DNA of 22,984 nucleotides from a virus. The notes below the pieces were generated by a model. It saw only the letters and a program-made list of their open reading frames with translations, ran no database searches and had not been told where the DNA came from. Numbering within the stretch: position 1 is the first letter of the stretch; the number at the start of each line of letters is the position of its first letter. A program made the position numbers and the translations under genes. The stretch is taken from positions 1-22,984 of the IMG/VR virus record IMGVR_UViG_3300031626_000020. One strand, 5' to 3'. Shown here piece after piece: positions 416 through 18,628 of this stretch.

Positions 416-464
416 TGTTATTTTCTCTCTGTACAAATTAATTATTTATTTTTACGTCTAGGTC

Positions 465-493
465 TTGTATTCTATATATCGATGTGCTATCTG
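465..493 (+). promoter_or_regulatory. Possible rightward promoter of the early operon
   Basis: TTGTAT (465-470) and TATCTG (488-493) are separated by 17 bases, and a TG lies one base before the second box (extended -10). The -10 match is weak. If real, transcription would start near 500, exactly on the first GAAC half-site, which fits repression. No better rightward promoter is visible between the divergent genes. Confidence 0.35.
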
Positions 494-499: not shown

Positions 500-525
500 G
501 AACATATGTTGAATGTTTGTAGAAC
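500..525 (+). promoter_or_regulatory. Triple LexA-type operator: GAAC-N7-GAAT-N7-GAAC
   Basis: Three half-sites GAAC (500-503), GAAT (511-514) and GAAC (522-525) repeat with an exact 11-base pitch. Alphaproteobacterial LexA is known to bind direct repeats written GTTC-N7-GTTC, which is GAAC-N7-GAAC on the other strand, so each adjacent pair here is a match or near match. The array lies between the divergent genes, next to the leftward -35 and at the presumed rightward start. A protein with a LexA DNA-binding domain is encoded at 5475-5702. A related site is at 2741-2755. Confidence 0.55.
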
Positions 526-540
526 GTATGAATTTTATGA

Positions 541-555
541 GGAGGTAAACTAATG
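541..555 (+). promoter_or_regulatory. Strong ribosome-binding site, recurring module
   Basis: GGAGGTAAACTAATG combines a full Shine-Dalgarno with the ATG of the first early gene. The same tail, AAACTAATG, recurs at the next three gene starts (832-845, 1149-1162, 1451-1464). Confidence 0.8.
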
Positions 556-843
556 AAAAAGACAGTAACAGTATCATTTGAAAATAAAGAATATTGTTTT
601 CCTTATTATAGAGATTTAGATAGTAAGGAAGTTGATTTTTTAAATATTCCTAAAATTACTAAATTAATTAAAACAAAAAGTCGTAATGGCAATGCTTTTA
701 CTAGAAGGCAACCCGTTATGGATAAAACAGTAATTGAAAATATAATTCGATTAGGTACTGAAAAAGTTCATTTGTTGACTAGATATTTAAAGGATGAAAT
801 TTCACTAGAAGAATACAAGCAATATTTAGATGGAGCAAACTAA
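553..843 (+). CDS. Hypothetical early phage protein, 96 aa
   Basis: I do not recognise this protein. It is lysine-rich and markedly AT-rich in codon use, starts MKKTVTVSFENKEYCFPYY, and its second half is predicted helical (from about residue 57, DKTVIENIIRLG onward). No membrane segment or signal peptide is visible. The start is secure because a strong GGAGG lies just upstream at 541-545. It is the first gene of the rightward operon, directly behind the candidate operator array, so it is expected early. Its stop overlaps the next start as TAATG, and its last residues, DGAN, are encoded by the ribosome-binding module of the next gene. Confidence 0.75.
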   Translation: MKKTVTVSFENKEYCFPYYRDLDSKEVDFLNIPKITKLIKTKSRNGNAFTRRQPVMDKTVIENIIRLGTEKVHLLTRYLKDEISLEEYKQYLDGAN

Positions 844-845
844 TG
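832..845 (+). repeat. Coupling module GGAGCAAACTAATG, copy 1
   Basis: The module is at once the C-terminal codons GAN-stop of the upstream gene, the Shine-Dalgarno of the downstream gene and the overlapping TAATG stop/start. Identical copies lie at 1149-1162 and 1451-1464. Confidence 0.85.
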
Positions 846-1160
846 AGAGCAATAGTTAAAAGTGCCATGAAAGTTGGGGAACTATCCAATCAGTTTATAG
901 ATATTGACAACATTACTTGGAAACAAGTTGATGAGTTTGTAACTGATGCTTACATGGTTAAGGAAGCTGAATATCATTTAGAGATAGCTATCGAATGGTT
1001 AGAAGAATTGACTTCTGATGATGAAGATCATGCTATGTGGCTTAAAGATTCCAAGCAACTCAAAAGATTTATCAAGACCTGGAAAGGCAAATGCCAGCCA
1101 CATAAGAATGATGGTGTTGCATGGGAAGAACTAGAACTATTAATAAAGGGAGCAAACTAA
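843..1160 (+). CDS. Hypothetical acidic early protein, 105 aa
   Basis: Not recognised. It is acidic and largely helical in appearance, with a D/E-rich centre (residues about 41-63, including WLEELTSDDEDHAMWL) and a basic patch after it (KQLKRFIKTWKGK). No membrane segments or catalytic motif are visible. The ATG overlaps the previous stop (TAATG) and is preceded by GGAG, so the start is secure. It ends in IKGAN like the next gene, because the following ribosome-binding module supplies those codons. It is co-transcribed with the flanking small genes and the recombinase. Confidence 0.75.
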   Translation: MRAIVKSAMKVGELSNQFIDIDNITWKQVDEFVTDAYMVKEAEYHLEIAIEWLEELTSDDEDHAMWLKDSKQLKRFIKTWKGKCQPHKNDGVAWEELELLIKGAN

Positions 1161-1162
1161 TG
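1143..1162 (+). repeat. Coupling module, extended 20-bp copy 2
   Basis: ATAAAGGGAGCAAACTAATG is identical base for base to 1445-1464. It encodes the IKGAN-like end of one protein and carries the Shine-Dalgarno and start of the next. Confidence 0.85.
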
Positions 1163-1462
1163 AAACTAGCCTTCATAATCATTCCACATGAAACTAAGCT
1201 GGGCAGTATGAAAAATCTGCTCAGTAAAACCATTGAGGCATTTTATATGCAATTTGGTGGATGTACACATTATCCGGTGACCGGCATATGGAAAGGTCAT
1301 TTAGATGGTCTTCCATGTGAAAAGATCGAGGTGGCTTTAGAAGATAATGAGCAAAGCGAGTTCACAGATATCTGCACAGATGTAGCTATGAAATGTGGAT
1401 CTCTATATGTCATGGTCCAATATCCTGGTGGTGACATACAATTTATAAAGGGAGCAAACTAA
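1160..1462 (+). CDS. Hypothetical small alpha/beta protein, 100 aa
   Basis: A longer reading from an ATG at 1121 is possible, but I chose 1160 because GGGAG (1148-1152) and the overlapping TAATG match its two neighbours exactly. The protein begins MKLAFIIIPHETKLGSM and has alternating hydrophobic strands and helices. The pieces FGGCTHYPVTGIWKG and SLYVMVQYPGGDIQFI recall small stand-alone proteins of unknown function in which an FGG-x-T-x-x-P-x-x-G-x-W stretch precedes a C-terminal strand pair. That resemblance is from memory and weak. No catalytic residues can be named. It is translationally coupled on both sides. Confidence 0.75.
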   Translation: MKLAFIIIPHETKLGSMKNLLSKTIEAFYMQFGGCTHYPVTGIWKGHLDGLPCEKIEVALEDNEQSEFTDICTDVAMKCGSLYVMVQYPGGDIQFIKGAN

Positions 1463-1464
1463 TG
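1445..1464 (+). repeat. Coupling module, extended 20-bp copy 3
   Basis: The same 20 bases as 1143-1162, here forming the junction between the 100-aa protein and the serine recombinase. Confidence 0.85.
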
Positions 1465-2208
1465 GCAGTCAAAACGACAGCCGGGCAAGAACACACCGGC
1501 ACATACTTTGCTTATGTCCGAGTATCAACAGATGACCAGGATGTAAGAAGACAAGAGATGGAGATCCTCAAATGGCTCAATGGTGGTAATCATTCAGTCG
1601 TTTGGTTTAAGGAAGAGGGTGTGTCAGGCACAATAGATCCGGAGCATAGACCAAAGCTTAGTCAATGCATTGAAACAGCCAAGGCTATGAATGGCACTAT
1701 TATTGTAGCTGACTTGGACAGATTCAGTCGTACCATGTGGCATACTTTAAAATTCTTTGAAACTATTCTTAAAAAGAATGCTGTTAAACTTATCGTCTGC
1801 GATGATCCGACCTTGTCTGACAATAAAGAAAGATTTTATATGAAGGCATTATTCGCTGACTTTGAACGTGATAAGATTTCTAAAAGAACCAAATCAGGTC
1901 TTGCAAGAATAAAAGGGGAGCTAATAGAGAAGGGCAGTATTATCTCATCTAATGGCAATCGTATCACTAAGCTTGGTATTCATAATGAAATGGACAAGGC
2001 TAGAGCTTCAGCTTCGACAGCCGTCAAAACCATTGCTGATAACTTTGCGACTAAAATAGCTCCTACAGTTAATAAAAGATTAAAAGCTGGTGAAAGCTAT
2101 AGAGAAATTGCCCAGGAACTAAATGAACTTGGTGTACCGACTGCAAGAGGCGGTAACTGGCACGCATCATCGGTCAGAAACATAGCAAAAAGATTGGGAA
2201 ATAAATAA
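1462..2208 (+). CDS. Serine recombinase (resolvase/invertase family)
   Basis: A 248-residue small serine recombinase, a family that cuts and rejoins DNA through a phosphoserine link. The catalytic domain is intact: YVRVST carries R20 and the nucleophile S22, and DLDRFSR carries D86, R87 and R90. FADFERDKISKRTKSGLARIK (about residues 131-151) is the usual start of the long E helix. The C-terminal part (about 205-245), with SYREIAQELNELGVPTARGG and WHASSVRNIAKRL, is the DNA-binding helix-turn-helix region. The size excludes the large serine integrases, so resolution, inversion or accessory recombination is more likely than classical integration. It looks richer in GC than the gene at 553, which could mean a separate origin. 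Coupled by TAATG at both ends. Confidence 0.93.
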   Translation: MAVKTTAGQEHTGTYFAYVRVSTDDQDVRRQEMEILKWLNGGNHSVVWFKEEGVSGTIDPEHRPKLSQCIETAKAMNGTIIVADLDRFSRTMWHTLKFFETILKKNAVKLIVCDDPTLSDNKERFYMKALFADFERDKISKRTKSGLARIKGELIEKGSIISSNGNRITKLGIHNEMDKARASASTAVKTIADNFATKIAPTVNKRLKAGESYREIAQELNELGVPTARGGNWHASSVRNIAKRLGNK

Positions 2209-2690
2209 TGAATGATATCAAAGTACATGAAAATTCAGTTAAAGAAATACATCAGCATTTAATACGAAAATATAACCAAGCTATTATTCAAGTTGAAATG
2301 ACTTTATATCAAGGTCGAAAAACTCGTAATAAAACTAAAATACAAGCTTATATAAATTCAACTAGCTTGCGTTATGGTTTTTGCTTTTGGATGATGTCAA
2401 GTTACTATGCCAACCAACATTACACGATTGGTTATCTTGTAAAAGAAATGCACTCAACACGTCAGTCAATTTCGACTGTGATTTCAGAGTGTGAAGCTGA
2501 AGGCTGGATAGATGTTATTCGCACAAAAAATTCGGTCAAATGTACAGCATCACAGCCAATGATAGAGGTTTTTGAGGAGTTCATGCTTTTTAGACGAAAC
2601 GAGGTTAAAAGTGTGATTGGTTATGCTTTTCAAAATCTTACCAACTTTGAGAAATTGATGTCAAAGGACTTTACACAAGAAGATGAATAG
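2208..2690 (+). CDS. Winged-helix DNA-binding protein (MarR-like)
   Basis: A 160-residue protein with a central winged-helix region (about residues 55-125). YTIGYLVKEMHSTRQSISTVISECEAEGWI reads as a helix-turn-helix, and IDVIRTKNSVKCTAS as the wing. This arrangement recurs in MarR-like phage regulators that include the SRQSIS-type recognition helix. The basic N-terminal part (GRKTRNKTKIQ, near 36-46) may contact DNA. The ATG overlaps the recombinase stop, and GGGA upstream is a modest ribosome-binding site. It is the last gene before a 91-base intergenic region with a second operator, so it closes the first early sub-operon. Its target is unknown. Confidence 0.65.
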   Translation: MNDIKVHENSVKEIHQHLIRKYNQAIIQVEMTLYQGRKTRNKTKIQAYINSTSLRYGFCFWMMSSYYANQHYTIGYLVKEMHSTRQSISTVISECEAEGWIDVIRTKNSVKCTASQPMIEVFEEFMLFRRNEVKSVIGYAFQNLTNFEKLMSKDFTQEDE

Positions 2691-2740
2691 GTATCAAACT
2701 AGTATGCATTGTTAGATGTTTTTTTTTGTGTTTAGCTATA

Positions 2741-2755
2741 GAACATCTTACGAAG
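2741..2755 (+). promoter_or_regulatory. Second LexA-type operator: GAAC-N7-GAAG
   Basis: GAAC (2741-2744) is followed after 7 bases by GAAG (2752-2755). The context ATAGAACAT is identical to the left part of the 500-525 array. The site lies 26 bases before the start of the gene at 2782, in the only sizeable gap of the early operon. Its left part also belongs to an inverted repeat, AGATGTT (2714-2720) with AACATCT (2742-2748). Confidence 0.45.
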
Positions 2756-2781
2756 AAAGATAGATAGAGAGGAGAAGATTA

Positions 2782-3309
2782 ATGAAACCTTATGTAAACA
2801 AATATAAAACGAATGACCCGGTAAAAGATCCAAACGATCTTAGAGGTCATAACCAACCACCAGGAGCCGGTGTTCCTGAATACGACAGTAAGATTGCTGA
2901 TGATTATTTTGATAAAATGCCGGTTGGTGCAATTATGAAAAAACGTATTAAAGAAACGGGCAAGTTCACCGGCAAGGAACTTAAAGATGGGTTAGTGTTT
3001 CCAACCTTAACTGGTCCTCAAAAAGAAAAGCTTGCAAGAATGCTTCTCGATGGAAAGGATTATCTTCAGTATCGTGATTTAAGAGTGGCTTGCCGAATGA
3101 CTATCCCAATCGTTGATATCACTATGATTGCTTCAGCTTCACGAATTTTTATGGAGCTTGGTCGCACCTTACGAGAAATCAAAAGGGATACAACCAAGTC
3201 AAAATTTGAACGGGTTATAAAAGCCCAAGAAGCGATAGTAAGTGCCAATGGTACAATTAAGTTTAAACATGGATTATATGAAATGTTAGGTGTACATTCC
3301 CTAAGATGA
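2782..3309 (+). CDS. Hypothetical early phage protein, 175 aa
   Basis: Not recognised. The first 45 residues look unstructured and polar, with RGHNQPPGAGVPEYDSK, a proline/asparagine-rich leader often seen in phage proteins. The rest is basic and helical, with KERIK/KREIKR-like stretches (FMELGRTLREIKRDTTKSKFERVIKAQEA near residues 121-149), consistent with nucleic-acid or protein binding. No catalytic motif or membrane segment is visible. The start is supported by GAGAGGAG (2767-2774). It is the first gene after the second operator and is joined by an ATGA overlap to a very short gene. Confidence 0.75.
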   Translation: MKPYVNKYKTNDPVKDPNDLRGHNQPPGAGVPEYDSKIADDYFDKMPVGAIMKKRIKETGKFTGKELKDGLVFPTLTGPQKEKLARMLLDGKDYLQYRDLRVACRMTIPIVDITMIASASRIFMELGRTLREIKRDTTKSKFERVIKAQEAIVSANGTIKFKHGLYEMLGVHSLR

Positions 3310-3449
3310 CCTATTTTTTACAACCAACTATCAATGACTTAAAGATCGCAAAACTAGATATGGTATGCATTCTGCCTGACCCGTCTAGAGCTTGCACATT
3401 AAAAATAAATAATGGAGAAAATAAATATGAAGTTATATCAACACGTTAG
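3306..3449 (+). CDS. Tiny hypothetical protein, 47 aa
   Basis: Translated by hand. It starts with an ATG that overlaps the previous stop as ATGA (3306-3309) and runs to TAG at 3447-3449. The product begins MTYFLQPTINDLKIAKLDMV and contains two cysteines. Its 3' end overlaps the start of the next gene by 23 bases. The ATGA coupling and the fact that it fills an otherwise empty gap in a tightly packed operon are the only support. No family is recognised. Confidence 0.45.
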   Translation: MTYFLQPTINDLKIAKLDMVCILPDPSRACTLKINNGENKYEVISTR

Positions 3450-3675
3450 GGAAGACCTTTTTTTAAATTATAGTGTTTGTCGCATAATATATACTAAGTC
3501 AGACCCAGCGACTCGGCTTTTTGCTATCACCCCTCTAGCTCTTATAATGCTAACTAAGCTATTTGGTTATGCTTTACTCACCTTTATGGCATTGGCTACA
3601 ATCTACTACACACTACATATGGTATGCCTTATAGACGATGCGTGCTTTGCCCTTAACTATGGAGTGAAGCTATGA
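3427..3675 (+). CDS. Small membrane protein, 82 aa
   Basis: An ATG at 3412 is also in frame, but I chose 3427 because GGAG at 3414-3417 is then correctly spaced (9 bases). The protein has a short basic, polar start and then a long hydrophobic region (about residues 32-68), ALIMLTKLFGYALLTFMALATIYYTLHMV, that could form two closely spaced membrane helices. It is cysteine-containing near the end (VCLIDDACF). Function unknown. Its stop overlaps the start of the exonuclease gene (ATGA at 3672-3675), so the two are probably coupled. Confidence 0.65.
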   Translation: MKLYQHVREDLFLNYSVCRIIYTKSDPATRLFAITPLALIMLTKLFGYALLTFMALATIYYTLHMVCLIDDACFALNYGVKL

Positions 3676-4595
3676 AGTGGTCTAATGATGCAGACGAATT
3701 AGGAGCTTCTAAAGTAGGGGCTATCGTAATGGGTGAAACACCTTTCCAAACTAACGAAGCCGTCAGGCAAATCGTTTTAAATGCTAAAGCTGGTGTTCAA
3801 TCTATTGATGATGGTCTTTACCAGGATGCTAAAGATAGAGGTAACTATCTAGAACCAACCTTAACTGAATGGGCAAGTGACAAGTTAGATAATCTATGCC
3901 CGGATAATGTGGTTTGTAATTACACTCCGCCAATTGATGCCCATCGTATAAAAGAAATGAGGCTGTGTGCTTCTCTTGATGGTATATTAGAAGTGGTAGG
4001 CGGAGAACTTACTATTCCTAATCCTCAAGGTGATGACATAAGTGTATCAGGCTTTGGTGCATTAGAAATAAAAACTGATGGCTGGGATGATGGACCGCCA
4101 AGAGCCGACCAGGTGATTCAGTTACAAACTCAGATGTTATGTGCCGGTTTTAAATGGGGAGTTATTGCTAAACTTGGACCAAAATTAAAATTTACCCTTT
4201 TTCCATATAGGCTAAGTGAAAAGCTTGTAGGCATCATAATAGAAAAGGTTGCTGAATTTTGGGATAGGGTTGATAGGGATCTTCCTTACCCACCAATTGA
4301 TAATGGCAAGCCGGACAGCATTTCATTAGATTCAATGGAAACTAGAGATGACGTTATACAAATTATAACCGATTACAATCAATGCAAAGCTGAAGAAAAA
4401 GCCTGGAAATTAAAAAAAGAACAATGCCAGGAAGCCTTGGAGCTAGTGCTTGATGAGGTTGATGCCGAGTATGCAACCATTGGTGAATATAAAATTTCTT
4501 TCCCAATCATTAAACGTAAAGCGACACCGGAAAAAATAGTGCCAGCTAAACCATCAACCGAACATAGACGATTTTCAATTGAGGAGAATAAATAA
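3672..4595 (+). CDS. YqaJ-like phage exonuclease
   Basis: A 307-residue protein with the motifs of the YqaJ/lambda-exonuclease group (PD-(D/E)XK fold), which resects linear double-stranded DNA to feed single-strand annealing. In order: RGNYLEP with E61, CASLDGIL with D103, GALEIKT with E132 and K134, and DQVIQLQTQM with Q147 and Q150, the conserved glutamine helix. The first residues, ASKVGAIVMGETPF, match the usual start in which the enzyme recognises DNA. The C-terminal 80 residues form a charged helical tail. It is followed directly (shared TAATGA) by a RecT-like gene, the standard partner. The sequence shows no broken motif. Confidence 0.88.
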   Translation: MKWSNDADELGASKVGAIVMGETPFQTNEAVRQIVLNAKAGVQSIDDGLYQDAKDRGNYLEPTLTEWASDKLDNLCPDNVVCNYTPPIDAHRIKEMRLCASLDGILEVVGGELTIPNPQGDDISVSGFGALEIKTDGWDDGPPRADQVIQLQTQMLCAGFKWGVIAKLGPKLKFTLFPYRLSEKLVGIIIEKVAEFWDRVDRDLPYPPIDNGKPDSISLDSMETRDDVIQIITDYNQCKAEEKAWKLKKEQCQEALELVLDEVDAEYATIGEYKISFPIIKRKATPEKIVPAKPSTEHRRFSIEENK

Positions 4596-5500
4596 TGAAT
4601 AGTTTTAAAACTAATTTAATACCAACTAACATTGATCAGGCTATGAGGATCTCAGAAATGTTTTCTAAGTCTGACCTTGTGCCTGATAGTTATAAAAATA
4701 AACCAGCTAATATCTTTTTGGCTGTGTCGGCTGGAGCTTCCCTTGGGCTGGCACCTTTCCAGGCAATGCAGAACATAGCTGTTATAAATGGTAAGCCATC
4801 AATATGGGGCGATGCTTTACTGGCTATGGTTCGCAATGATAGAAGGTGTTTATCAGTTAAAGAAACAATTGATGGTGAAGGCAAAGCTAGAACAGCAACT
4901 TGCGTAGTATCCAGGTTAGCCCCTAATGGAGAAACAGAAGTTATTAGTTCCAGCTTTTCTATGGGTCAGGCACAAAGTGCTAATTTATTAAATAGACCAC
5001 CTTGGAAATCCTATCCTGATCGAATGCTTCAAATGAGGGCTAGGGGCTTTGCTTTGCGTGATGCGTTTGCTGATGTTATCGGTGGATTAATTACTGGAGA
5101 AGAAGCTGAAGACTATCCGGTGCCTAAAGGTGCTGTACAAGAGCTAGAGAAGACCTCTAAGTTTGATAAGGATGCTCGAAGCATTGATGATATAGTTGGA
5201 GAGCTTACGGCTCCTGACGAGTCTGAAATCGAGCTTGCATGGATGATCAATACACCAGGCAAAGATCCAGTAAAATTAAATAATAAAAATGACTTTGTTT
5301 TAAAGTACATTGAAATCATGCAGATAGTGGACAGAAGTAAAATGTGGACCGCTGAAATTAAAAGGCAAAAATATTCTGAGCTTAAAACTAAAAACATGGA
5401 GATGTTAGAACAGCTTAGAAATAGTGACTTTGGTTTAATAGAAGAAATAGAAATGGAAGAGGGGAGATTGTTTGATGTCAAAGATGCCATTAACTCCTAA
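4595..5500 (+). CDS. RecT-like single-strand annealing protein
   Basis: A 301-residue protein of the RecT/Redbeta-type recombinases, which coat single-stranded DNA and anneal complementary strands. The conserved core covers about residues 40-175: LGLAPFQAMQNIAVINGKPSIWGDA (49-73), then PPWKSYPDRMLQMRARGFALRDAFADVIGGL with the typical arginines. The C-terminal 110 residues are acidic and helical and less conserved, as usual for the family. GAGGAG lies before the ATG, which overlaps the exonuclease stop. The last 26 bases overlap the mini-LexA gene in another frame. Together with the exonuclease it forms a two-gene recombination module. Confidence 0.88.
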   Translation: MNSFKTNLIPTNIDQAMRISEMFSKSDLVPDSYKNKPANIFLAVSAGASLGLAPFQAMQNIAVINGKPSIWGDALLAMVRNDRRCLSVKETIDGEGKARTATCVVSRLAPNGETEVISSSFSMGQAQSANLLNRPPWKSYPDRMLQMRARGFALRDAFADVIGGLITGEEAEDYPVPKGAVQELEKTSKFDKDARSIDDIVGELTAPDESEIELAWMINTPGKDPVKLNNKNDFVLKYIEIMQIVDRSKMWTAEIKRQKYSELKTKNMEMLEQLRNSDFGLIEEIEMEEGRLFDVKDAINS

Positions 5501-5702
5501 ACAATTAAATGTTTTAAAATTTATAAAATCTTTTTATATAGAGCATGAGTATATGCCAACATACATGGAGATTTGTGAATCATTAAATATGAAATCAACT
5601 AGTTCAGCTTTCCATTATGTCAATAGCCTGGATAAGAAAGGGCATATTAAAAGATTTAAAGAAGGAAAGTATGGAGGCAATAGAGCTATAGAACTTATAT
5701 AG
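5475..5702 (+). CDS. Mini-LexA: LexA DNA-binding domain without peptidase domain
   Basis: A 75-residue protein matching only the N-terminal winged-helix domain of LexA (PF01726). It has the opening LTPKQLNVLKFIKSFYIEHEY, then MPTYMEICESLNMKSTSSAFHYVNSLDKKG as the helix-turn-helix, and a short wing ending in NRAIELI. Full LexA is about 200 residues and has a self-cleavage Ser/Lys domain, which is wholly missing. The stop is clean and the adjoining region encodes the lysozyme on the other strand, so this is not a recent break. I chose the ATG at 5475 (GGGGAG at 5461-5466) over the TTG at 5472. It closes the recombination operon, and GAAC-N7-GAAC-like sites at 500-525 and 2741-2755 are likely targets. 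Confidence 0.8.
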   Translation: MSKMPLTPKQLNVLKFIKSFYIEHEYMPTYMEICESLNMKSTSSAFHYVNSLDKKGHIKRFKEGKYGGNRAIELI

Positions 5703-6135
5703 CTTGCAACCTTGCAATTAATCTATCGGCTCTTGCTGTTACTTGTGTGTAGTAGCGAGAGTTTTTTAATTGGTAACCACATTCAATCCAATCACGATCT
5801 TTTACAGCTTTCCGAAACAAAACAAATTTAGATAAACGAGGTCTGCCCATATTAAACATAAGGTTTCCAATTATCAATTGCACTTCTTCCGGCAACTCAT
5901 CAAAGTCTTCAAATAAAATTTTACATTCATCGATGGTACCATAAACATCCGCCTGGAAACATTGGTTTACTCTGTCAGGAGATACGGCTGTGCCAACCGG
6001 CAGATCGTATTCCTCATCCCATTCGGTGACAAGGTGACCTATCCCGTGCGTTGGCAGACCTAAATGATCTAAGTAAATTTCGTACTTACATCCTTCATCT
6101 TCTTTGAGATCTTCTCGAAGCTTATCAATGTTCAT
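5695..6135 (-). CDS. Endolysin, T4-type lysozyme (GH24 muramidase)
   Basis: A 146-residue muramidase that cuts the glycan backbone of peptidoglycan at lysis. The catalytic triad spacing is exactly that of T4 lysozyme: E14, D23 (nine later) and T29 (six later), in EGCKYEIYLDHLGLPTHGIGH. NLMFNMGRPRLSKF and the C-terminal SRYYTQVTARADRL are also typical of the family. There is no signal peptide or N-terminal anchor, so release should depend on the holin encoded upstream. The start overlaps the stop of the 46-aa gene (ATGA). Its 3' end overlaps the mini-LexA gene tail to tail by 8 bases. Confidence 0.92.
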   Translation of the reverse strand: MNIDKLREDLKEDEGCKYEIYLDHLGLPTHGIGHLVTEWDEEYDLPVGTAVSPDRVNQCFQADVYGTIDECKILFEDFDELPEEVQLIIGNLMFNMGRPRLSKFVLFRKAVKDRDWIECGYQLKNSRYYTQVTARADRLIARLQAI

Positions 6136-11744: not shown

Positions 11745-12992
11745 CTATAAAGCCACAGCCATTGCTGTAGCGAATCCCTTTGATGCTAAAGTTGATGTAT
11801 CAGTTGCTTCTACTGTGTTCCATGCAGAGCCAGTATAAAATTTAAGTACATTAGAACTGCTATTAAAATACAAATCTCCAGCACTAACAGTTCCACCACT
11901 AGGATCACTTGAAGCTGAACCATGATAGATATTAGAAAATTCTGTTTTAGATAAAGCCGATTGAGTTGCCCAATACTTAGCTGAATAAGCTGATCCATCT
12001 ACTGTACCAGCAGTATAAGTTGCCCAATCTTTTGCAGAGTGTTTACCAGTATTTGAACCTCTATCTAAAGCACCTATTGCATAACCTTTAGCTGAATAAT
12101 CATCTGCACTATCTACATGAACTGTTGCATTAGGATTAGTTCCACCACCAATTGCCCATTCTCTAGCTGAACCAGTTACACCAGTTACACCAGTACCACC
12201 AACAGCTTGTGCTTTAGATGAAAAATCAGAAGTGCTTGGAACAACACCATCAACTTTAGTTGCATAGTTTTGAGCAATTGTAGCATTAGCACTAGACGAA
12301 TTAATATTACTTATATTAGAAGCTACTGTAGAAACAGCACTAGAAATGCCAGCTACAGTTGCCACATTAGATGCAACCCCAGCTACAGTTGAAAGATTAG
12401 AGGCTGATATCCCAGCAACACTTGTGATGTTACTTGATATCCCAGCCAACGTAGCAATGTTAGCTGATTGACTTGCTAATGTGTTTCCATTGGTTATTGT
12501 AAATGTGGCTTCAGGATTACCAGTAGAAGCATTAAAACCTAATAACTTTCCTAACCTGGTAGCTTTTACCGGCAAGGTCATGTTAGCACCGGGTATGGTA
12601 TCATGCTCGGCTAGTCTTAAAGATCTATCAATCTCTTCATTAGTCTGCTGATGAATAAACATATTCGTATCAAAGTCATCTTCTAGACTAGCTGATGTAA
12701 GCTGACCACCTGATGTATAAACTGATGTCCTGGCAAAAGGAATATCTGAAAGTAAAGTAACAGTCTGAGAGTTAGTAGGGTGGTTGCCTGAAGTAAAACC
12801 AACAGTACCGGCACCAGTACCTGAATTTAATGTGACAACATAATGAGTGCTTTCTTCTTTTTCGGTACTATCAACATAGACTTTTAATTGTGATGTAGCA
12901 TTTATTTGAAACGCAAAAGCAAAGTTCCCGGTTGTTCCATTGCCGGTATGTTGAACTCTTCTAGTTTGTGCCGTTACATTATAAGTTGCCAT
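11745..12992 (-). CDS. T7-type tail fibre protein, 415 aa
   Basis: Residues 1-140 match the T7 gp17 N-terminal tail-attachment domain (PF03906). The visible signs are TRRVQHTGNGTTGNFAFAFQ, then YVDSTEKEESTHYVVTLNSG, PFARTSVYTSGGQLTSASL and QTNEEIDRSLRLAEHD. Residues 178-230 are a roughly ten-residue repeat of the form N-I-x-T-V-A-G-I-S-S, probably a trimeric coiled coil or beta helix. Residues 256-345 hold five copies of a motif S-A-K-x-W-A. The end, AGDLYFNSSSNVLKFYTGSAW, is a tip segment common in marine phage fibres. It is likely the adaptor fibre on which the smaller fibres are mounted. GAGAGG precedes the start within a small hairpin. Confidence 0.86.
   Translation of the reverse strand: MATYNVTAQTRRVQHTGNGTTGNFAFAFQINATSQLKVYVDSTEKEESTHYVVTLNSGTGAGTVGFTSGNHPTNSQTVTLLSDIPFARTSVYTSGGQLTSASLEDDFDTNMFIHQQTNEEIDRSLRLAEHDTIPGANMTLPVKATRLGKLLGFNASTGNPEATFTITNGNTLASQSANIATLAGISSNITSVAGISASNLSTVAGVASNVATVAGISSAVSTVASNISNINSSSANATIAQNYATKVDGVVPSTSDFSSKAQAVGGTGVTGVTGSAREWAIGGGTNPNATVHVDSADDYSAKGYAIGALDRGSNTGKHSAKDWATYTAGTVDGSAYSAKYWATQSALSKTEFSNIYHGSASSDPSGGTVSAGDLYFNSSSNVLKFYTGSAWNTVEATDTSTLASKGFATAMAVAL
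12309..12461 (-). repeat. Tandem ten-residue coding repeats in the fibre shaft
   Basis: About five degenerate units with consensus N-x-x-T-V-A-G-I-S-S, residues 178 to about 228 of the T7-type fibre. The related DNA pieces are visible as repeated CCAGCTACAGTTG-like segments on the plus strand. Confidence 0.7.
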
Positions 12993-12993
12993 T

Positions 12994-13010
12994 CTAGATT
13001 ACCTCTCTAG
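12994..13010 (-). promoter_or_regulatory. Small hairpin presenting the fibre Shine-Dalgarno
   Basis: CTAGA (12994-12998) and TCTAG (13006-13010) can pair. In the minus-strand RNA the 7-base loop is GAGGTAA, the Shine-Dalgarno of the fibre gene starting at 12992. The stem is only 5 bp. Confidence 0.3.
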
Positions 13011-13020
13011 GTTTTATACA

Positions 13021-15864
13021 CTATTTATTTTCACTCGACAATATCTTTAATCTATCATCAGTACTTAACATAATATTCATTGCACTACTTCTTGCATCAC
13101 CTAATATCACATTTAACATGTTATATTTTTCTTCGTCATCAACCTCTAATTTATAGGCTTCGCTACTAATTGTATTATTTAAAGATGGTAACAAAGCTCT
13201 TGTGGCATCGTATCCGCCATCACCTATAGTAAGGCTGTATTTTTGATTAACTCTATTGGAGTTGTTTAATATAGTAACGTATCTATTAAATTGTTTGTCA
13301 GATAGTTGGACCCCATTATATTTCTTTCTATGTGATTGAAAGACAAAACCTCGTTCAGACAGCCTGATTAATTCTTTGTCTAGGGATGTATAGCCTCCAC
13401 TTTGAATTTTAATAGGGCTGAAATATTCGTAATTTTTACCATTGCCTTGAGTTTTAATGTTGCCCCAAAAGTCTAAAGCTGGTTCCAATTGATTGTTATA
13501 TTTTGCATTGCCTGACTTAGCTCTATTAAGAGCTTCATAAAAACCCTTCATAACTTCAGGAAAGTAAAAGCTGTTAGCATCATCAATTTGTTCAGTTGTG
13601 AGCATTGTATTGTTAGCCATAGGATTACCAACTCTTTCCAAGGTCCTGGTAAATGAACTAGCACCTGGAAGTTCAAACTGTTCCGGAAGATAAGTGTTTA
13701 TTTCATTAGTGACTGTCATTGCAATATCACCACCAATGCCCGATAAAGTTTTAGTCAACCTTTTAAAAAGATCGTCTTTATTACCATATGGATTTCCACC
13801 AGCTTTAAATATTTCTGATACACCTTGAAGAAATGGTAAATTCATTGCGTATTCAGCTATAGCTAAAGATCCGGCTTTAGCTAGATTTTCTATAACAGTT
13901 GAATCATCTTCATTCTTAGAATAATAGGAAAAATCACTTGCCATCGCTAATATACCCGACAAAGGATCTAAACGGCTAAAAGTAATATATTTATATTCGC
14001 CATTTTCTTGTTTAATTCCGATGGAATAAGGTGGAACATTTGAACCCCTCATATATCTCCTGGCTTTCCAATCAGTAGGTCCTGATCCATTTATAACTAT
14101 GTTATCACCAAACGCACCATCAGCAAGCATAACCATACCAAAGAACAATCCATTGCCCATAACTAACTTAGACATAGCTCTATCAAATTCAAGACCTGAT
14201 TGTTTGCTACCACCTTGATCAATGCCTTGTTTGTTGTTTGGCATATTCTGTTTTAAAGCTTTATAAATTGGTGAATAATTAAATGTCCTATCAAACACTT
14301 GCTGAATAATATTAGTTGGTGTTTTAGAAAAGGGAACAATAGTTTTCATACCTGGTAAGTTTGCAACATTAACCAATGTAGCCCATGCCCCTTGGGGATC
14401 ATTTTGAAACGTCATAATTTTGGCTTCGGCTGTCATCTTTTCTACAATGTCTTCAGGTGGGTTTATTATAATATCTGTGTATTTTTTTTGTGCCATGATT
14501 TTAGCTTGGTCTTTGGGAACACCTCCCCTTAAAGCTGTTTCATAAGTTATCATTTGTGATCTGTAAGCTTCTCGATAAAGAACTTTACGTTTAGATATGA
14601 CCTTAAAAAATTCATCTTCTGATGCAAGAAATCTTCCAGGCAACCTAGTTGTGACACCAATCATATTTACAAGCATAGCCCCAAAATCACCTTTAGCCCC
14701 CATTTCCATAATATGGGCAAGGTTATCAGTAGAGCCAATAGATTTAGGTCTTTTTAAATCTATTTTAGATACAAAGTCACCAGCAGATCCAGTTACACCA
14801 AATGATAAGGCAGACGATTTAAAAGCATCACCTAATGCCATCCTTGCTCCATAAGCTTCAGCCGACATCTCACCCATATAAGCACGATCACCAATTTTGC
14901 CTCGTCTTCCACCAAGGGTTCTAACTTCCCCAATTAATCCAGAAAGTCCACTTTCTAGAGTGCTTGAAACCTGAAACATAGAATTACCAGCCATGTTAAC
15001 TACATGAGTAACTCCTGATGAAAGTAGGGCATTGATATATATTTCCATCGCTATATCATAACCTCTAGCCATAAACCCTCTTACTGTGTAATGAGCTTTG
15101 CCAGGATTTTGAAGATTTAAAAAAGCATGGGCATGATAATCAACCATTCCTTCATCCATGTTTTCTACAAAATCAGTAATACTATTTGTGTATTCAGAAA
15201 GATTAATATTATTTAATTTAGCTATGTTAGACACAACAGCTAAACCTCTTCCATATTCAGATACATTCCCGGAAACTTGTGCAGATAGATTTGTTTGTAT
15301 TGTAGCTAAAATCTTTAATTCTCTAAAAGCTTGTAGCTTCTCGCCTTCATCAGAAGACTTAGTTATAGCCAATGCTTTTTTATTTAAATCTTGCCCAATT
15401 TTAAGCATGGCTATTAAACCACCAATTGTTTCTTCGGCTGGCATAATGTTACCAGGTTTTCTATTTAAAAATTTATAGACTATTTCAGAGAACCCAGTTT
15501 GTTCAGCCAGGGCAACCATTCCATCCATTGTCTGTTTTGGTCTTCTTAAAAAAGCAAAGAGTTCTTTGTTATTAGACTTTATATTTACAAGCATGGTTTC
15601 AAGATCAAACACCTCAGTACCATCATCACCAGGCTTGAATAGTAAGTTTATTCTTTTTAAATTTAAACCAGGACCTTTATATCCTTCTTCACTCAAAATT
15701 TTATTTAAAGCTTTTACACCTTCATCATCCATACCTTTTACAGCAAGATCTCCACCAGGAAGCACAGTAACATCATTATCAGGTCTAGTTTCTTTATGAA
15801 TTTTTTGCTGTGCTAAATCCAGCTTGTTTAGTATCTCTGCACCTTTACCAAGTATGTTAACCAT
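13021..15864 (-). CDS. Large internal virion (ejection) protein, 947 aa
   Basis: A very large, mostly helical protein at the position of T7 gp16, just before the T7-type fibre. Visible stretches include THVVNMAGNSMFQVSSTLESG (about 285-306), VPFSKTPTNIIQQVFDRTFN (about 512-531) and MGNGLFFGMVMLADGAFGDN with a possible membrane-active helix. These are familiar from large internal proteins of marine podoviruses. I see no lysozyme or transglycosylase motif. It should be carried in the capsid and ejected with the DNA to build the channel across the envelope. Its start overlaps the previous gene by 8 bases (15857-15864), with GGAGCTAACGATG as ribosome-binding segment. Confidence 0.68.
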   Translation of the reverse strand: MVNILGKGAEILNKLDLAQQKIHKETRPDNDVTVLPGGDLAVKGMDDEGVKALNKILSEEGYKGPGLNLKRINLLFKPGDDGTEVFDLETMLVNIKSNNKELFAFLRRPKQTMDGMVALAEQTGFSEIVYKFLNRKPGNIMPAEETIGGLIAMLKIGQDLNKKALAITKSSDEGEKLQAFRELKILATIQTNLSAQVSGNVSEYGRGLAVVSNIAKLNNINLSEYTNSITDFVENMDEGMVDYHAHAFLNLQNPGKAHYTVRGFMARGYDIAMEIYINALLSSGVTHVVNMAGNSMFQVSSTLESGLSGLIGEVRTLGGRRGKIGDRAYMGEMSAEAYGARMALGDAFKSSALSFGVTGSAGDFVSKIDLKRPKSIGSTDNLAHIMEMGAKGDFGAMLVNMIGVTTRLPGRFLASEDEFFKVISKRKVLYREAYRSQMITYETALRGGVPKDQAKIMAQKKYTDIIINPPEDIVEKMTAEAKIMTFQNDPQGAWATLVNVANLPGMKTIVPFSKTPTNIIQQVFDRTFNYSPIYKALKQNMPNNKQGIDQGGSKQSGLEFDRAMSKLVMGNGLFFGMVMLADGAFGDNIVINGSGPTDWKARRYMRGSNVPPYSIGIKQENGEYKYITFSRLDPLSGILAMASDFSYYSKNEDDSTVIENLAKAGSLAIAEYAMNLPFLQGVSEIFKAGGNPYGNKDDLFKRLTKTLSGIGGDIAMTVTNEINTYLPEQFELPGASSFTRTLERVGNPMANNTMLTTEQIDDANSFYFPEVMKGFYEALNRAKSGNAKYNNQLEPALDFWGNIKTQGNGKNYEYFSPIKIQSGGYTSLDKELIRLSERGFVFQSHRKKYNGVQLSDKQFNRYVTILNNSNRVNQKYSLTIGDGGYDATRALLPSLNNTISSEAYKLEVDDEEKYNMLNVILGDARSSAMNIMLSTDDRLKILSSENK

Positions 15865-18628
15865 CGTTAGCTCCTAATTCTTTTAAAGCTTTATCTTGTA
15901 TTAGTTGAGCTTCACCATATCCATTCGGTCCTTCAAAGATTGGCAAATCATCTATTTTAGATCCACCAAAATAATTTTTGTCATAAACAAATAATACTAG
16001 ATCAGGCTCTCCATTATTATATTTAGCAAATGTTTCCTTGCTCCATCCTTCAGGTGCAAACTCATCACTCCATTTAACCCTTGATACCGGCTTCATTCCT
16101 ACTGTCTGATATATTTTTGGAAGCATTGTATTAAATGCATCTAGCTTGTTTCCGCCTTGCTGGATTGCTAATTGTAATGTTGCATATATTGTTTTAGGTG
16201 GGGCATTTGGTGCTTGGAATACACCTACGATATCACCATCAGGTTTTATGGCAAAACCACCACCATGCTCAGTTCTAAATAATTTTGAATCTAAAAGATC
16301 TTCAGGTTTTTGAATTGTTACTTGTAGACCATAAGTATGCTTAGATACAGCATTAGCCATATCAGTACTGTAAGACTGAGATGATGTTTTGGCATCAACT
16401 TGTTTAACTATAGGTATGGTTAATCCAGCTTTGTTATACTTAGCTAGAACTTCAGGGTTAGGCTCAAATGTTAAGCTCCCAACTCCTCCATCATTTGTTT
16501 GGCTTCCTCCTCCGTAAGGTCCGGATGATCCGCCATCGCTTCCCGAATTATTGAGTTGCTGAAGTCTTCTGTCATTTCTAACTGTTCGCTGTCGGGAACT
16601 GATTTCTCTGTATCCGTCAGGTTTAATTGTTCCCGATTCAATCGCAACTTTGTCAGCATCGCTTGCGAGAATTCCAAATCCTTCTTGTCCACTTACTTTC
16701 TCCACTCCTTCAGAAAATGTTTCCGGTTTTGTTGGCACACCTAAATCGTTTTGTAAGGTCTGCTCTCGAAACCAAAGTATAGCTTGTGCATCTTGTTCTG
16801 ACAAGTTTAAATCTTTTAATTGTGGATCATTAACAATATCTTTAACAAGCTGGTCCATTAGTAATCTTTCACTTTGATTTTTAGGTTGTCCAAGCTCAAC
16901 CATTTTTTCAGTACCTTTATTCTTGTCAATCTTCTTAACCATGTGATCGCCAAAGGTACCTTCACTTCTTCTTATAGTTCTTACAAACCATTTATCTTTT
17001 GTAGTTGTGGGATAACCTTGAATATTAAGCATGAATTTACCAGCCTTATCTCCAAGTATAGTTGCACCTAAATGCTGACTATCACCAGTACCACTCATAC
17101 CAGTTGGACCGGATTTAAAACCAGCTTCTAATCTAAGTTTAGTTAATTCTTTTTTAGTTATTGGTGACAGCATAAAATCAGCAAACCCATCTTCACCAAA
17201 TTTATCCAATAAAAATTGAACCATTTTAAGACCATCGGGATAACCATACTGACCAAAACCAGCCATATTTATATTTTCGACTGATGTTCCTTTAGGAGGT
17301 GCTTCAGTACTAAATTTGCCCGTTCTTAAATATTTAAGATATTGTGCTGATCCTGATTTAGTATTTTGTGCAACTTTCGGTCCAGGTGACGTAGCACCAA
17401 GTATTGCTGAGTATATTACTCTTTGTGTTTCGCTGTTTCCTAGTTTGTCAAAACCTGGCATCTTAGACAACATATTAAACATTTTAAGAACATCTTCATC
17501 ATACCAACCTTTACCGGAAACTTCTTTATTAAGTTGGTTTTTTATAGATGTTATATTTTCATTTTTAATTATTTCATAATCTTTTGGATTAGAAAGAGTT
17601 AATTTTCTGCCATGTTTTTTTAAAGCTAGTTGATCATAAAATTTATGAATATCTTCAACTAGTATTTTAGGCTTATTAATATCCTTAACATTGGGATTTC
17701 TATCTAGTGCTATTTTATTAATTTCTTTTTTATAGTCAGGAGCAAACTTAGCAATTTGCGTTGTAATGAAGTTATCAATTTCACCAGCACCCATGCTAGA
17801 TATAGTTGTAGTTCCCTGATTATTCTCTAATGTTTCTTTTGCATTTATACCTATTTTTTGAAACTGAGATTTTACACCACTTTTTAAGCTTTTAAGCATA
17901 GGGCTGTTCTTTGCATACTTTAACAACAAACCTAAACCTTCAGCTATGCCTTCACCGACAACACCAGCTTCTGTAAACAATAGGGGAGCTTTCTGTAATT
18001 TCTGCAACAAGTAGGGAAGATCTTCATTAGCTTCTAGTGTTTCTAGTACAGCTTTACCAGCTTCAGTATCTCCTGATATCATGGTGATAGCTGTTTCCAA
18101 TAATCCTTTATCTTTAGCCGGAATGACTAGGGCTTCAGTTGTTCCATAACCAAGAACATTTGTAAGAAAACGACTGCCTAAGTTTGCTCCTTGTAAAGAT
18201 TTTGTAGCCATAGCACCAGGAAGAATAATCTGCGTTCCAACTTCACCAACTATGGCTCCTACCTCTTGAGCCGTTCCATCAGGTTTTATAGCTTCATTAA
18301 TAGATTTATTAGCCGATGCCAATCCTGGAATATTATCATTCATCCAAGGAATAGCCATTTGCGAATACCATTGATTAGTAAACGTATCAATTATTTCTGT
18401 GCCAGCTTTAGATCCACCCATTGGCAAACCTTTAACAACACCAGTTGTGAAATCTCCTACAGTTTCAACAACGTCACTTGCTGTATTAACAATGTCTTCA
18501 AATACTGTTGTAGGAAAGTTTATATTAGATTGTTTCCCATCCCAAGTTTGCTCAAACTCTTCACCACTAGATCTAATGTTATTAGATAATAGGATCTGAT
18601 TATATACGTCTATTTCATTCTCTGCCAT
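15857..18628 (-). CDS. Large internal virion protein with polyvalent-type modules, 923 aa
   Basis: The N-terminal 240 residues are helical with glycine/alanine segments (SDVVETVGDFTTGVVKGLPM, and around 120-170). A middle module at about 370-580 begins KGWYDEDVLKMFNMLSKMPG and continues with ILGATSPGPKVAQN, a pattern I associate with modules of large multi-domain phage proteins. A glycine/serine-rich linker lies at about 690-715. A C-terminal module (about 785-885) runs GGGFAIKPDGDIVGVFQ, then LAIQQGGNKLDAFNTMLPKI, FAPEGW and DLVLFVYD. It looks like a small enzyme or toxin-like fold but I cannot name it. Packed into the virion together with its neighbours. The linker region also encodes another gene out of frame. 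Confidence 0.66.
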   Translation of the reverse strand: MAENEIDVYNQILLSNNIRSSGEEFEQTWDGKQSNINFPTTVFEDIVNTASDVVETVGDFTTGVVKGLPMGGSKAGTEIIDTFTNQWYSQMAIPWMNDNIPGLASANKSINEAIKPDGTAQEVGAIVGEVGTQIILPGAMATKSLQGANLGSRFLTNVLGYGTTEALVIPAKDKGLLETAITMISGDTEAGKAVLETLEANEDLPYLLQKLQKAPLLFTEAGVVGEGIAEGLGLLLKYAKNSPMLKSLKSGVKSQFQKIGINAKETLENNQGTTTISSMGAGEIDNFITTQIAKFAPDYKKEINKIALDRNPNVKDINKPKILVEDIHKFYDQLALKKHGRKLTLSNPKDYEIIKNENITSIKNQLNKEVSGKGWYDEDVLKMFNMLSKMPGFDKLGNSETQRVIYSAILGATSPGPKVAQNTKSGSAQYLKYLRTGKFSTEAPPKGTSVENINMAGFGQYGYPDGLKMVQFLLDKFGEDGFADFMLSPITKKELTKLRLEAGFKSGPTGMSGTGDSQHLGATILGDKAGKFMLNIQGYPTTTKDKWFVRTIRRSEGTFGDHMVKKIDKNKGTEKMVELGQPKNQSERLLMDQLVKDIVNDPQLKDLNLSEQDAQAILWFREQTLQNDLGVPTKPETFSEGVEKVSGQEGFGILASDADKVAIESGTIKPDGYREISSRQRTVRNDRRLQQLNNSGSDGGSSGPYGGGSQTNDGGVGSLTFEPNPEVLAKYNKAGLTIPIVKQVDAKTSSQSYSTDMANAVSKHTYGLQVTIQKPEDLLDSKLFRTEHGGGFAIKPDGDIVGVFQAPNAPPKTIYATLQLAIQQGGNKLDAFNTMLPKIYQTVGMKPVSRVKWSDEFAPEGWSKETFAKYNNGEPDLVLFVYDKNYFGGSKIDDLPIFEGPNGYGEAQLIQDKALKELGANDG
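16471..16692 (-). CDS. Embedded out-of-frame gene, acidic helical protein, 73 aa
   Basis: It lies wholly inside the 923-aa gene, same strand, different frame. The start is GTG at 16692 with GGAG exactly 7 bases upstream (complement 16700-16703) and a second AAGGAG before it. The product is non-repetitive and protein-like, with three acidic amphipathic helices. The end, DHPDLTEEEAKQMMEELGA, resembles C-terminal helices of small phage proteins I remember (pattern P-x-(L/I)-T-x-E-E-A). The main frame here is a poor linker (GSDGGSSGPYGGGSQ). Base composition here is richer in GC than the surrounding gene. Possible roles include a scaffold- or chaperone-like helper, but this is unproven. Confidence 0.5.
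   Translation of the reverse strand: MDKKDLEFSQAMLTKLRLNREQLNLTDTEKSVPDSEQLEMTEDFSNSIIREAMADHPDLTEEEAKQMMEELGA

Follow-up and report, generated by a model that had tools for sequence, protein, structure and literature searches.

A conserved tandem array of 11-base units and a peptidase-less LexA protein in the early region of a phage genome

In the IMG/VR virus record IMGVR_UViG_3300031626_000020, which was analyzed from position 1 to 22,984 (this whole stretch of 22,984 bases is called the window in the following), the left part is an early (recombination) operon of about 5 kb on the + strand, whose last gene encodes a protein composed of the LexA DNA-binding domain alone, here termed mini-LexA. 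At the start of the operon, directly behind a conserved promoter core, lies a tandem array of three 11-base units (site 1), which by sequence comparison is a real, conserved, and well-ordered operator-like array. With moderate confidence we propose that mini-LexA is the phage's own early-gene regulator, which would bind to this array and thereby exert a delayed negative feedback on the early operon. The elements concerned are:

498–530, + strand: tandem array of three 11-base units (498–508, 509–519, and 520–530), TAGAACATATG TTGAATGTTTG TAGAACGTATG
453–499, no strand assigned: conserved promoter core between divergent genes, from the alignment of 9 representatives
5475–5702, + strand: mini-LexA, 75 amino acids, consisting of the LexA winged helix alone and encoded by the last gene of the operon, which overlaps the end of recT

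The half-sites of the array are GAAC at 500–503, GAAT at 511–514, and GAAC at 522–525, with a pitch of exactly 11 bases. An earlier interpretation made from the letters alone (the sequence-only reading) had claimed just this arrangement at 500–525, and it was borne out by the pattern counts: GAAY-N7-GAAY-N7-GAAY occurs once in the window, compared to 0.03 occurrences expected from first-order shuffles, and if the intergenic stretch alone is shuffled, the triple arises in 17 of 100,000 cases. Furthermore, the 33-mer at 498 is at the top of all 22,951 window 33-mers for three-unit identity (25 matches), and a matrix generated from the arrays of 9 relatives, from which the window and its near copy L005 were excluded, yields 26.5 bits at site 1 and 9.5 bits at the next best place. 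A chance origin of site 1 was thus rejected by shuffles, matrix scan, and 33-mer ranking. Of 12 whole records, seven match the exact GAAY pattern, six of them at the array and one (the type-B record G006) elsewhere, whereby G003 escapes the pattern because its middle half-site is GAAA. The exact pair GAAC-N7-GAAC (GTTC-N7-GTTC on the other strand) does not occur in the window. Scanning by eye, the sequence-only reading had also found no other such pair in the early region than those at the two sites it described, which is not quite right, as GAAT-N7-GAAT is found at 4586.

Relatives of the window were gathered via mini-LexA, a small ribbon-helix-helix-like protein encoded divergently from the operon (ribbon protein), the gene at 2208, the promoter-core pattern, and one contig match. 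The letters of the array were not used in this selection; the core was used in one search and for placing the arrays. There are 29 distinct records bearing the core, including the window and near copies, and the array is present at the same place in all 29, at a constant distance behind the core in all types. The 19 distinct 33-mers fall into four types, the units of which are based on GAAC or RAAC in types A and C and on GGT in types B and B′:

Type A (11 arrays), example: TTGAACGTTAG ATGAACGTTCG TTGAACAAGGA
Type C (2 arrays): TAGAACAGTAA TGAAACATAGG GGGAACATATG
Type B (3 arrays): TAGGTAAGGCA TAAGTCTTACA TCGGTAATAAC
Type B′ (3 arrays): TAGGTAAGGCA TCGGTCTTACA TCGGTATTAAC

Between the lineages the geometry of the array is constant and the letters are altered. 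In joint column permutations, by which the relatedness of the rows is preserved, the lag-11 identity of the 11 type-A arrays is 0.606 compared to 0.278 ± 0.062 after permutation (0 of 10,000), and the permutation values for 11-base periodicity are 0/20,000 for type A, 0.00025 for type B, 0.0038 for type C, and 0.0001 for type B′. All 11 type-A arrays have GAAC as their first half-site, and the third is GAAC in ten and GAAT in one, while the middle one is GAAC in four, GAAT in three, GAAA in three, and shifted by one base in one (L036), so that GAAC-N7-GAAC-N7-GAAC is complete in 4 of the 11. In L100 (14.8 kb) the strict triple GGT pattern has a single match, which is at the array, and L043 and L046, with AGT in the middle unit, have none. 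The phage family that carries mini-LexA and the array is probably marine. A further lineage (L034, L035, L037, and L050) has a diverged LexA-like gene after recT; as it lacks the core, it was excluded from every count. In L035 and L037 the small divergent gene is another one, and near the operon start GTAC repeats with a spacing of 11 bases were seen by eye.

The promoter core contains TTGTAT at 465–470 and, as found by eye, an extended −10-like element TG-C-TATCTG at 485–493 in rightward orientation, the conservation of which suggests a rightward promoter at this position. If TG-C-TATCTG is the −10 element, the array starts about at the predicted rightward transcription start. In the 9 aligned representatives the array lies directly behind TGnTAT(A/C)TG; L005 has TGATATATATG instead. 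In leftward orientation there is a sigma-70-like pair, TTTACA-N17-TAGAAT at 497–469 (10/12), and the array adjoins its −35-like hexamer, directly upstream. Across types with differing arrays the region corresponding to window positions 457–493 is a nearly invariant core, TCTAGR-CTTGTAT..TAnATATC....TGnTAT (9 representatives), in which divergent promoters probably overlap and the ribbon protein probably has a site.

The protein encoded at 5475–5702 matches the N-terminal LexA winged helix (PF01726, 2.2e-13, 50.2 bits against a cut-off of 23.7), its model superposes on LexA 3jso with a template modeling (TM) score of 0.85 over the query, and the chain terminates after the wing. Its score with the TIGR00498 profile amounts to 40.9 bits against a cut-off of 110.95. 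These searches of the 75-residue protein against LexA families agree with the earlier claim that the gene encodes the LexA DNA-binding domain alone. The S24 peptidase domain (PF00717) was found in none of 8 phage records, and the same profile matches 10 of 14 control genomes. PF01726 is matched by all 16 members of the mini-LexA alignment (A1), and all 16 records reaching beyond recT encode a LexA domain without peptidase; the remaining 13 of the 29 stop before that point. Five of the 16 (L089, L093, L094, L096, and L100) had been found by LexA queries, which leaves an unbiased count of 11 of 11, the window included. Since an S24 domain is missing, mini-LexA should be blind to RecA and DNA damage.

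The proposed regulation would proceed as follows. Mini-LexA would be produced last from the 5-kb early operon, and as the units are about one helical turn apart, three monomers could line up on one face of the helix over the three 11-base units. Because the units begin at the predicted transcription start, bound mini-LexA would block further early transcription, which would amount to a delayed negative feedback, and array-bound mini-LexA may also favor the leftward promoter. The sequence-only reading had suggested that side-by-side binding could replace the lost dimerization domain, and the one-turn pitch fits this as far as a comparison can tell. In a more far-reaching form, which is possible but rather doubtful, an 11-base DNA ruler would space three LexA monomers at the only divergent switch in the genome; the recognition letters would have been rewritten from GAAC to GGT with ruler and position unchanged, and the protein would turn the early genes off and the rest on.

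The genome layout was taken from the relative G001 (35,862 bases), the mini-LexA of which is identical to that of the window. In its list of open reading frames (ORFs; at least 80 amino acids, with those nested in longer ones dropped), all ORFs in 12,599–17,543 are on one strand and every other listed ORF is on the opposite strand. There is one divergent point, which is the array (17,571), and one convergent point, which is located between mini-LexA and the lysozyme-like gene. The non-early side of the divergent point includes terminase, capsid, and tail genes. It might therefore be that mini-LexA is mainly an activator that turns on the rest of the genome leftward, with early repression being secondary, since the leftward side of G001 holds all the non-early ORFs and the array lies directly upstream of the leftward −35-like hexamer. 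A precedent would be gp6 of the Bacillus tectivirus GIL01, which is primarily a LexA DNA-binding domain and, as described in sections of PMC6182141, binds a phage promoter and activates it from a site centered at −43.5. However, promoter-like pairs are at chance level in this region (12 sites compared to 9.5 ± 2.9 in shuffles), and at the predicted rightward start, where the array begins as well, bound protein should cause a block. We consider a predominantly activating role unlikely. It could also be that the repeats act in RNA, as with a correctly predicted start the early transcript would contain the array in its 5′ leader, or that they are a by-product of promoter conservation. This is extremely improbable, as shuffled sequences fold just as well as the window leader (z −0.62) and the period of 11 is kept despite the letter changes.

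Another candidate for binding to the array is the ribbon protein:

170–415, − strand: small divergent protein with likely ATG at 415 (170–424 scanned), weak ribbon-helix-helix/Arc-like match, rival binder

Its match to PF07878 (0.0092) is below the cut-off, Arc-like PHROGs are matched at 0.014, and its model has low confidence, with a predicted local distance difference test (pLDDT) score of 63.6 and no strand assigned. The half-sites of Arc-type dimers are likewise spaced by about one turn, and autoregulation from a divergent gene is common. Binding of the array by this divergent Arc-like protein instead of mini-LexA is thus a serious rival, though in our estimation a less probable one. In its favor, the likely ATG is 82 bases from the array, and the gene is present in 28 of the 29 core records, the 29th (L065) beginning at the core. 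On the other hand, the ribbon proteins of types C and B are 75% identical and have the same EIEIVPFYCRLS strand, the predicted DNA-contacting one, although their array letters differ and 18 of 20 promoter-array differences are within the array. Conversely, the ribbon protein of L059 is 54% identical to that of type C, and the array stays the same, with 2 of 78 promoter-array bases changed. An array that is altered with the same ribbon strand and constant with a diverged ribbon protein is not following the ribbon protein, for which the invariant core would be the better candidate site. The gene at 2208 was set aside as binder, as tblastn gave no match for it in L005, where the array is kept. 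We thus infer mini-LexA as the array binder mainly by excluding the ribbon protein and the gene at 2208, together with the LexA precedent.

That the array follows the LexA sequence is less clear than its independence from the ribbon protein. At one position of the LexA recognition helix there is F or H in the type A and C proteins and Q in those of types B and B′ (aligned or translated). Several observations weigh against regulation by array-bound mini-LexA. The identity of the whole 14-residue helix is not sorted by array type: of 14 positions, type-C proteins share 2–5 with type-A proteins and 4–5 with type-B proteins, and 6 are common to L029 (type A) and L046 (type B). In the window and L005 the arrays are almost alike, with LexA proteins that are 65% identical and ribbon proteins that are 95% identical, which either reflects linkage or speaks for the ribbon protein. 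Wherever the record reaches, LexA and the ribbon gene co-occur, so their presence does not discriminate between the two as binder. The change from GAAC to GGT may have been a single event. The pitch is not strictly kept in L036, where the middle GAAC is displaced by one base, and the middle unit of type C has AAAC. Finally, the rightward promoter is absent from the promoter-scan output, which returned only the leftward pair.

According to the sequence-only reading, the tandem half-sites are candidate LexA-type operators of the alphaproteobacterial kind, and mini-LexA could hold off phage promoters or host SOS promoters during DNA damage. Comparison confirmed the tandem half-sites as a conserved element of the early operon start, but not as host-type LexA boxes. 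The nearest cultured relative is the OM43 phage MEP301, whose TerL and capsid are 65% and 58% identical to those of G001 and whose tail tube is 48% identical to that of the window, which makes an alphaproteobacterial host less likely. It might be possible that the sites serve the host LexA, so that the host SOS response governs the early genes and mini-LexA is a competitor of or a substitute for the host protein; indeed, in 4 of the 11 distinct type-A arrays the other strand reads GTTC-N7-GTTC, which is the alphaproteobacterial box according to parts of PMC3323433 and PMC8565304. We consider this very unlikely, given that the nearest cultured relative infects OM43, that the window has no exact box of this kind, that GGT arrays occupy the same place in types B and B′, and that E. 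coli-type boxes (CTGT-N8-ACAG, at most one mismatch) are not enriched in the window, with 6 found and 9.0 expected. On the same grounds of host and GGT letters, the suggested repression of host SOS promoters is unsupported. In MEP301 no mini-LexA was found among the translated early-region ORFs, nor is MEP301 one of the 11 records that mini-LexA matched at E 0.01. The words "LexA" and "repressor" have no occurrence in the main text of the OM43 phage papers PMC8024684 and PMC10580990, and within the open-access literature searched, OM43 was named together with LexA in Staphylococcus phage work only. L089 (CAKZOO010000071.1) is a phage contig with array and mini-LexA that is filed under a Flavobacteriaceae metagenome-assembled genome; it is probably mis-binned and was not used as host evidence.

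A second site was described by the sequence-only reading as the pair GAAC-N7-GAAG at 2741–2755:

2741–2766, + strand: possible degenerate second array, GAAC-N7-GAAG-N7-GATA, before the gene at 2782

The pair is present but not special in the window, as GAA[CTG] pairs at this spacing number 7 on both window strands compared to 6.7 expected. A scan of the window with the array matrix singles out site 1 and puts the 2741 place 207th, at −5.6 bits. Taken alone, site 2 of the window is unremarkable by pair count, matrix, and 33-mer ranking, and chance is not rejected there. Among 9 distinct sequences including the window, from which the strings were cut by eye, all nine have GAAC as well as GA at +11, and eight have GA at +22, whereby the +11 half-site is GATC or GATT in eight sequences and GAAG in the window. 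The lag-11 identity of the nine is 0.487 compared to 0.290 ± 0.061 (permutation p 0.0011). Site 2 is thus a possible weak second operator, a degenerate copy of the array. In several relatives an inverted repeat, ATCAAG...CTTGAT, is located between GAAC and the ribosome-binding site, which may be an operator or an RNA hairpin; at site 2 the window folds weakly (z 0.32), and of the three site-2 references folded, two had been cut inside the element.

The remaining features of the early region are:

553–2690, + strand: early operon, first part, with small genes at 553, 843, and 1160, a serine recombinase (1462–2208), and a helix-turn-helix-like gene (2208–2690), the resemblance of which is weak
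2782–5500, + strand: early operon, second part, with a gene at 2782, a RecE-like exonuclease (3672–4595), and a RecT-like annealing protein (4595–5500)
5695–6135, − strand: lysozyme-like gene meeting the end of the early operon, named from its sequence and not from a profile scan

The small genes between the array and the recombinase (553–1460) vary among relatives, and L035 has as its first gene one with 97% identity to the window gene at 553, located under an unrelated promoter. As judged from these sequences, the region is a hot spot of small early genes. In G001 the start of a 947-amino acid protein is present at both ends (35771–35862 and 2231), and the large virion protein that precedes it has 1006 amino acids near the G001 end and 923 in the window; either a strain variant or terminal redundancy may account for this.

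Truncated phage LexA regulators are already known from GIL01 gp6. Like mini-LexA, gp6 is phage-encoded, consists of the LexA DNA-binding domain only, and, according to the same sections of PMC6182141, acts on a phage promoter; for mini-LexA such binding is predicted. The gp6 site described there is a palindrome, GaCACAnnTGTGaC, from which the late promoter P3, itself under host LexA control, is activated, whereas the present array consists of three direct 11-base units at an early start beside recE/recT-like genes, though it lies just upstream of a leftward promoter-like pair as well. Within the open-access titles and abstract starts on truncated or phage-encoded LexA that were searched, GIL01 was found and no such array is described. 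The pelagiphages HTVC103P, HTVC104P, and HTVC106P encode small LexA-domain proteins with 37–46% identity (tblastn), those of HTVC104P and HTVC106P being annotated as (putative) transcriptional repressor LexA, but in another gene neighborhood. With the alphaproteobacterial LexA box GTTC-N7-GTTC the type-A arrays share the direct repeat, the 11-base pitch, and the GAAC/GTTC half-site, and they differ in having three units, a presumed binder without dimerization domain, and letters that vary by lineage. Alphaproteobacterial LexA is full length, and two half-sites suffice. The exact box is confined to the four type-A arrays mentioned and is present neither in the window (GAAC-GAAT-GAAC) nor in types B and B′. 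Arc-like systems resemble the present one in the small divergent gene that adjoins the array and in the half-site pitch of about one turn, but here the array does not follow the ribbon protein sequence between lineages. The LexA boxes GGTT-N10-AACC and TTAC-N3-GTAA, both named in a part of PMC8565304, show a faint likeness to the type-B arrays in letters but not in spacing; for example, L043 has TTAC-ATCG-GTAA, which is one base wider than the latter, Bdellovibrio, box.

If the proposed regulation is true, it would be a further case, beside GIL01 gp6, in which the DNA-binding half of the SOS repressor serves as a private, damage-blind phage switch. In addition, it would show how a monomeric winged helix regains operator affinity through tandem geometry, and the lineages would form a natural series in which an operator is re-coded while its geometry stays constant. 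Natural protein-operator pairs for testing a change of LexA specificity would then be available in types A, C, B, and B′.

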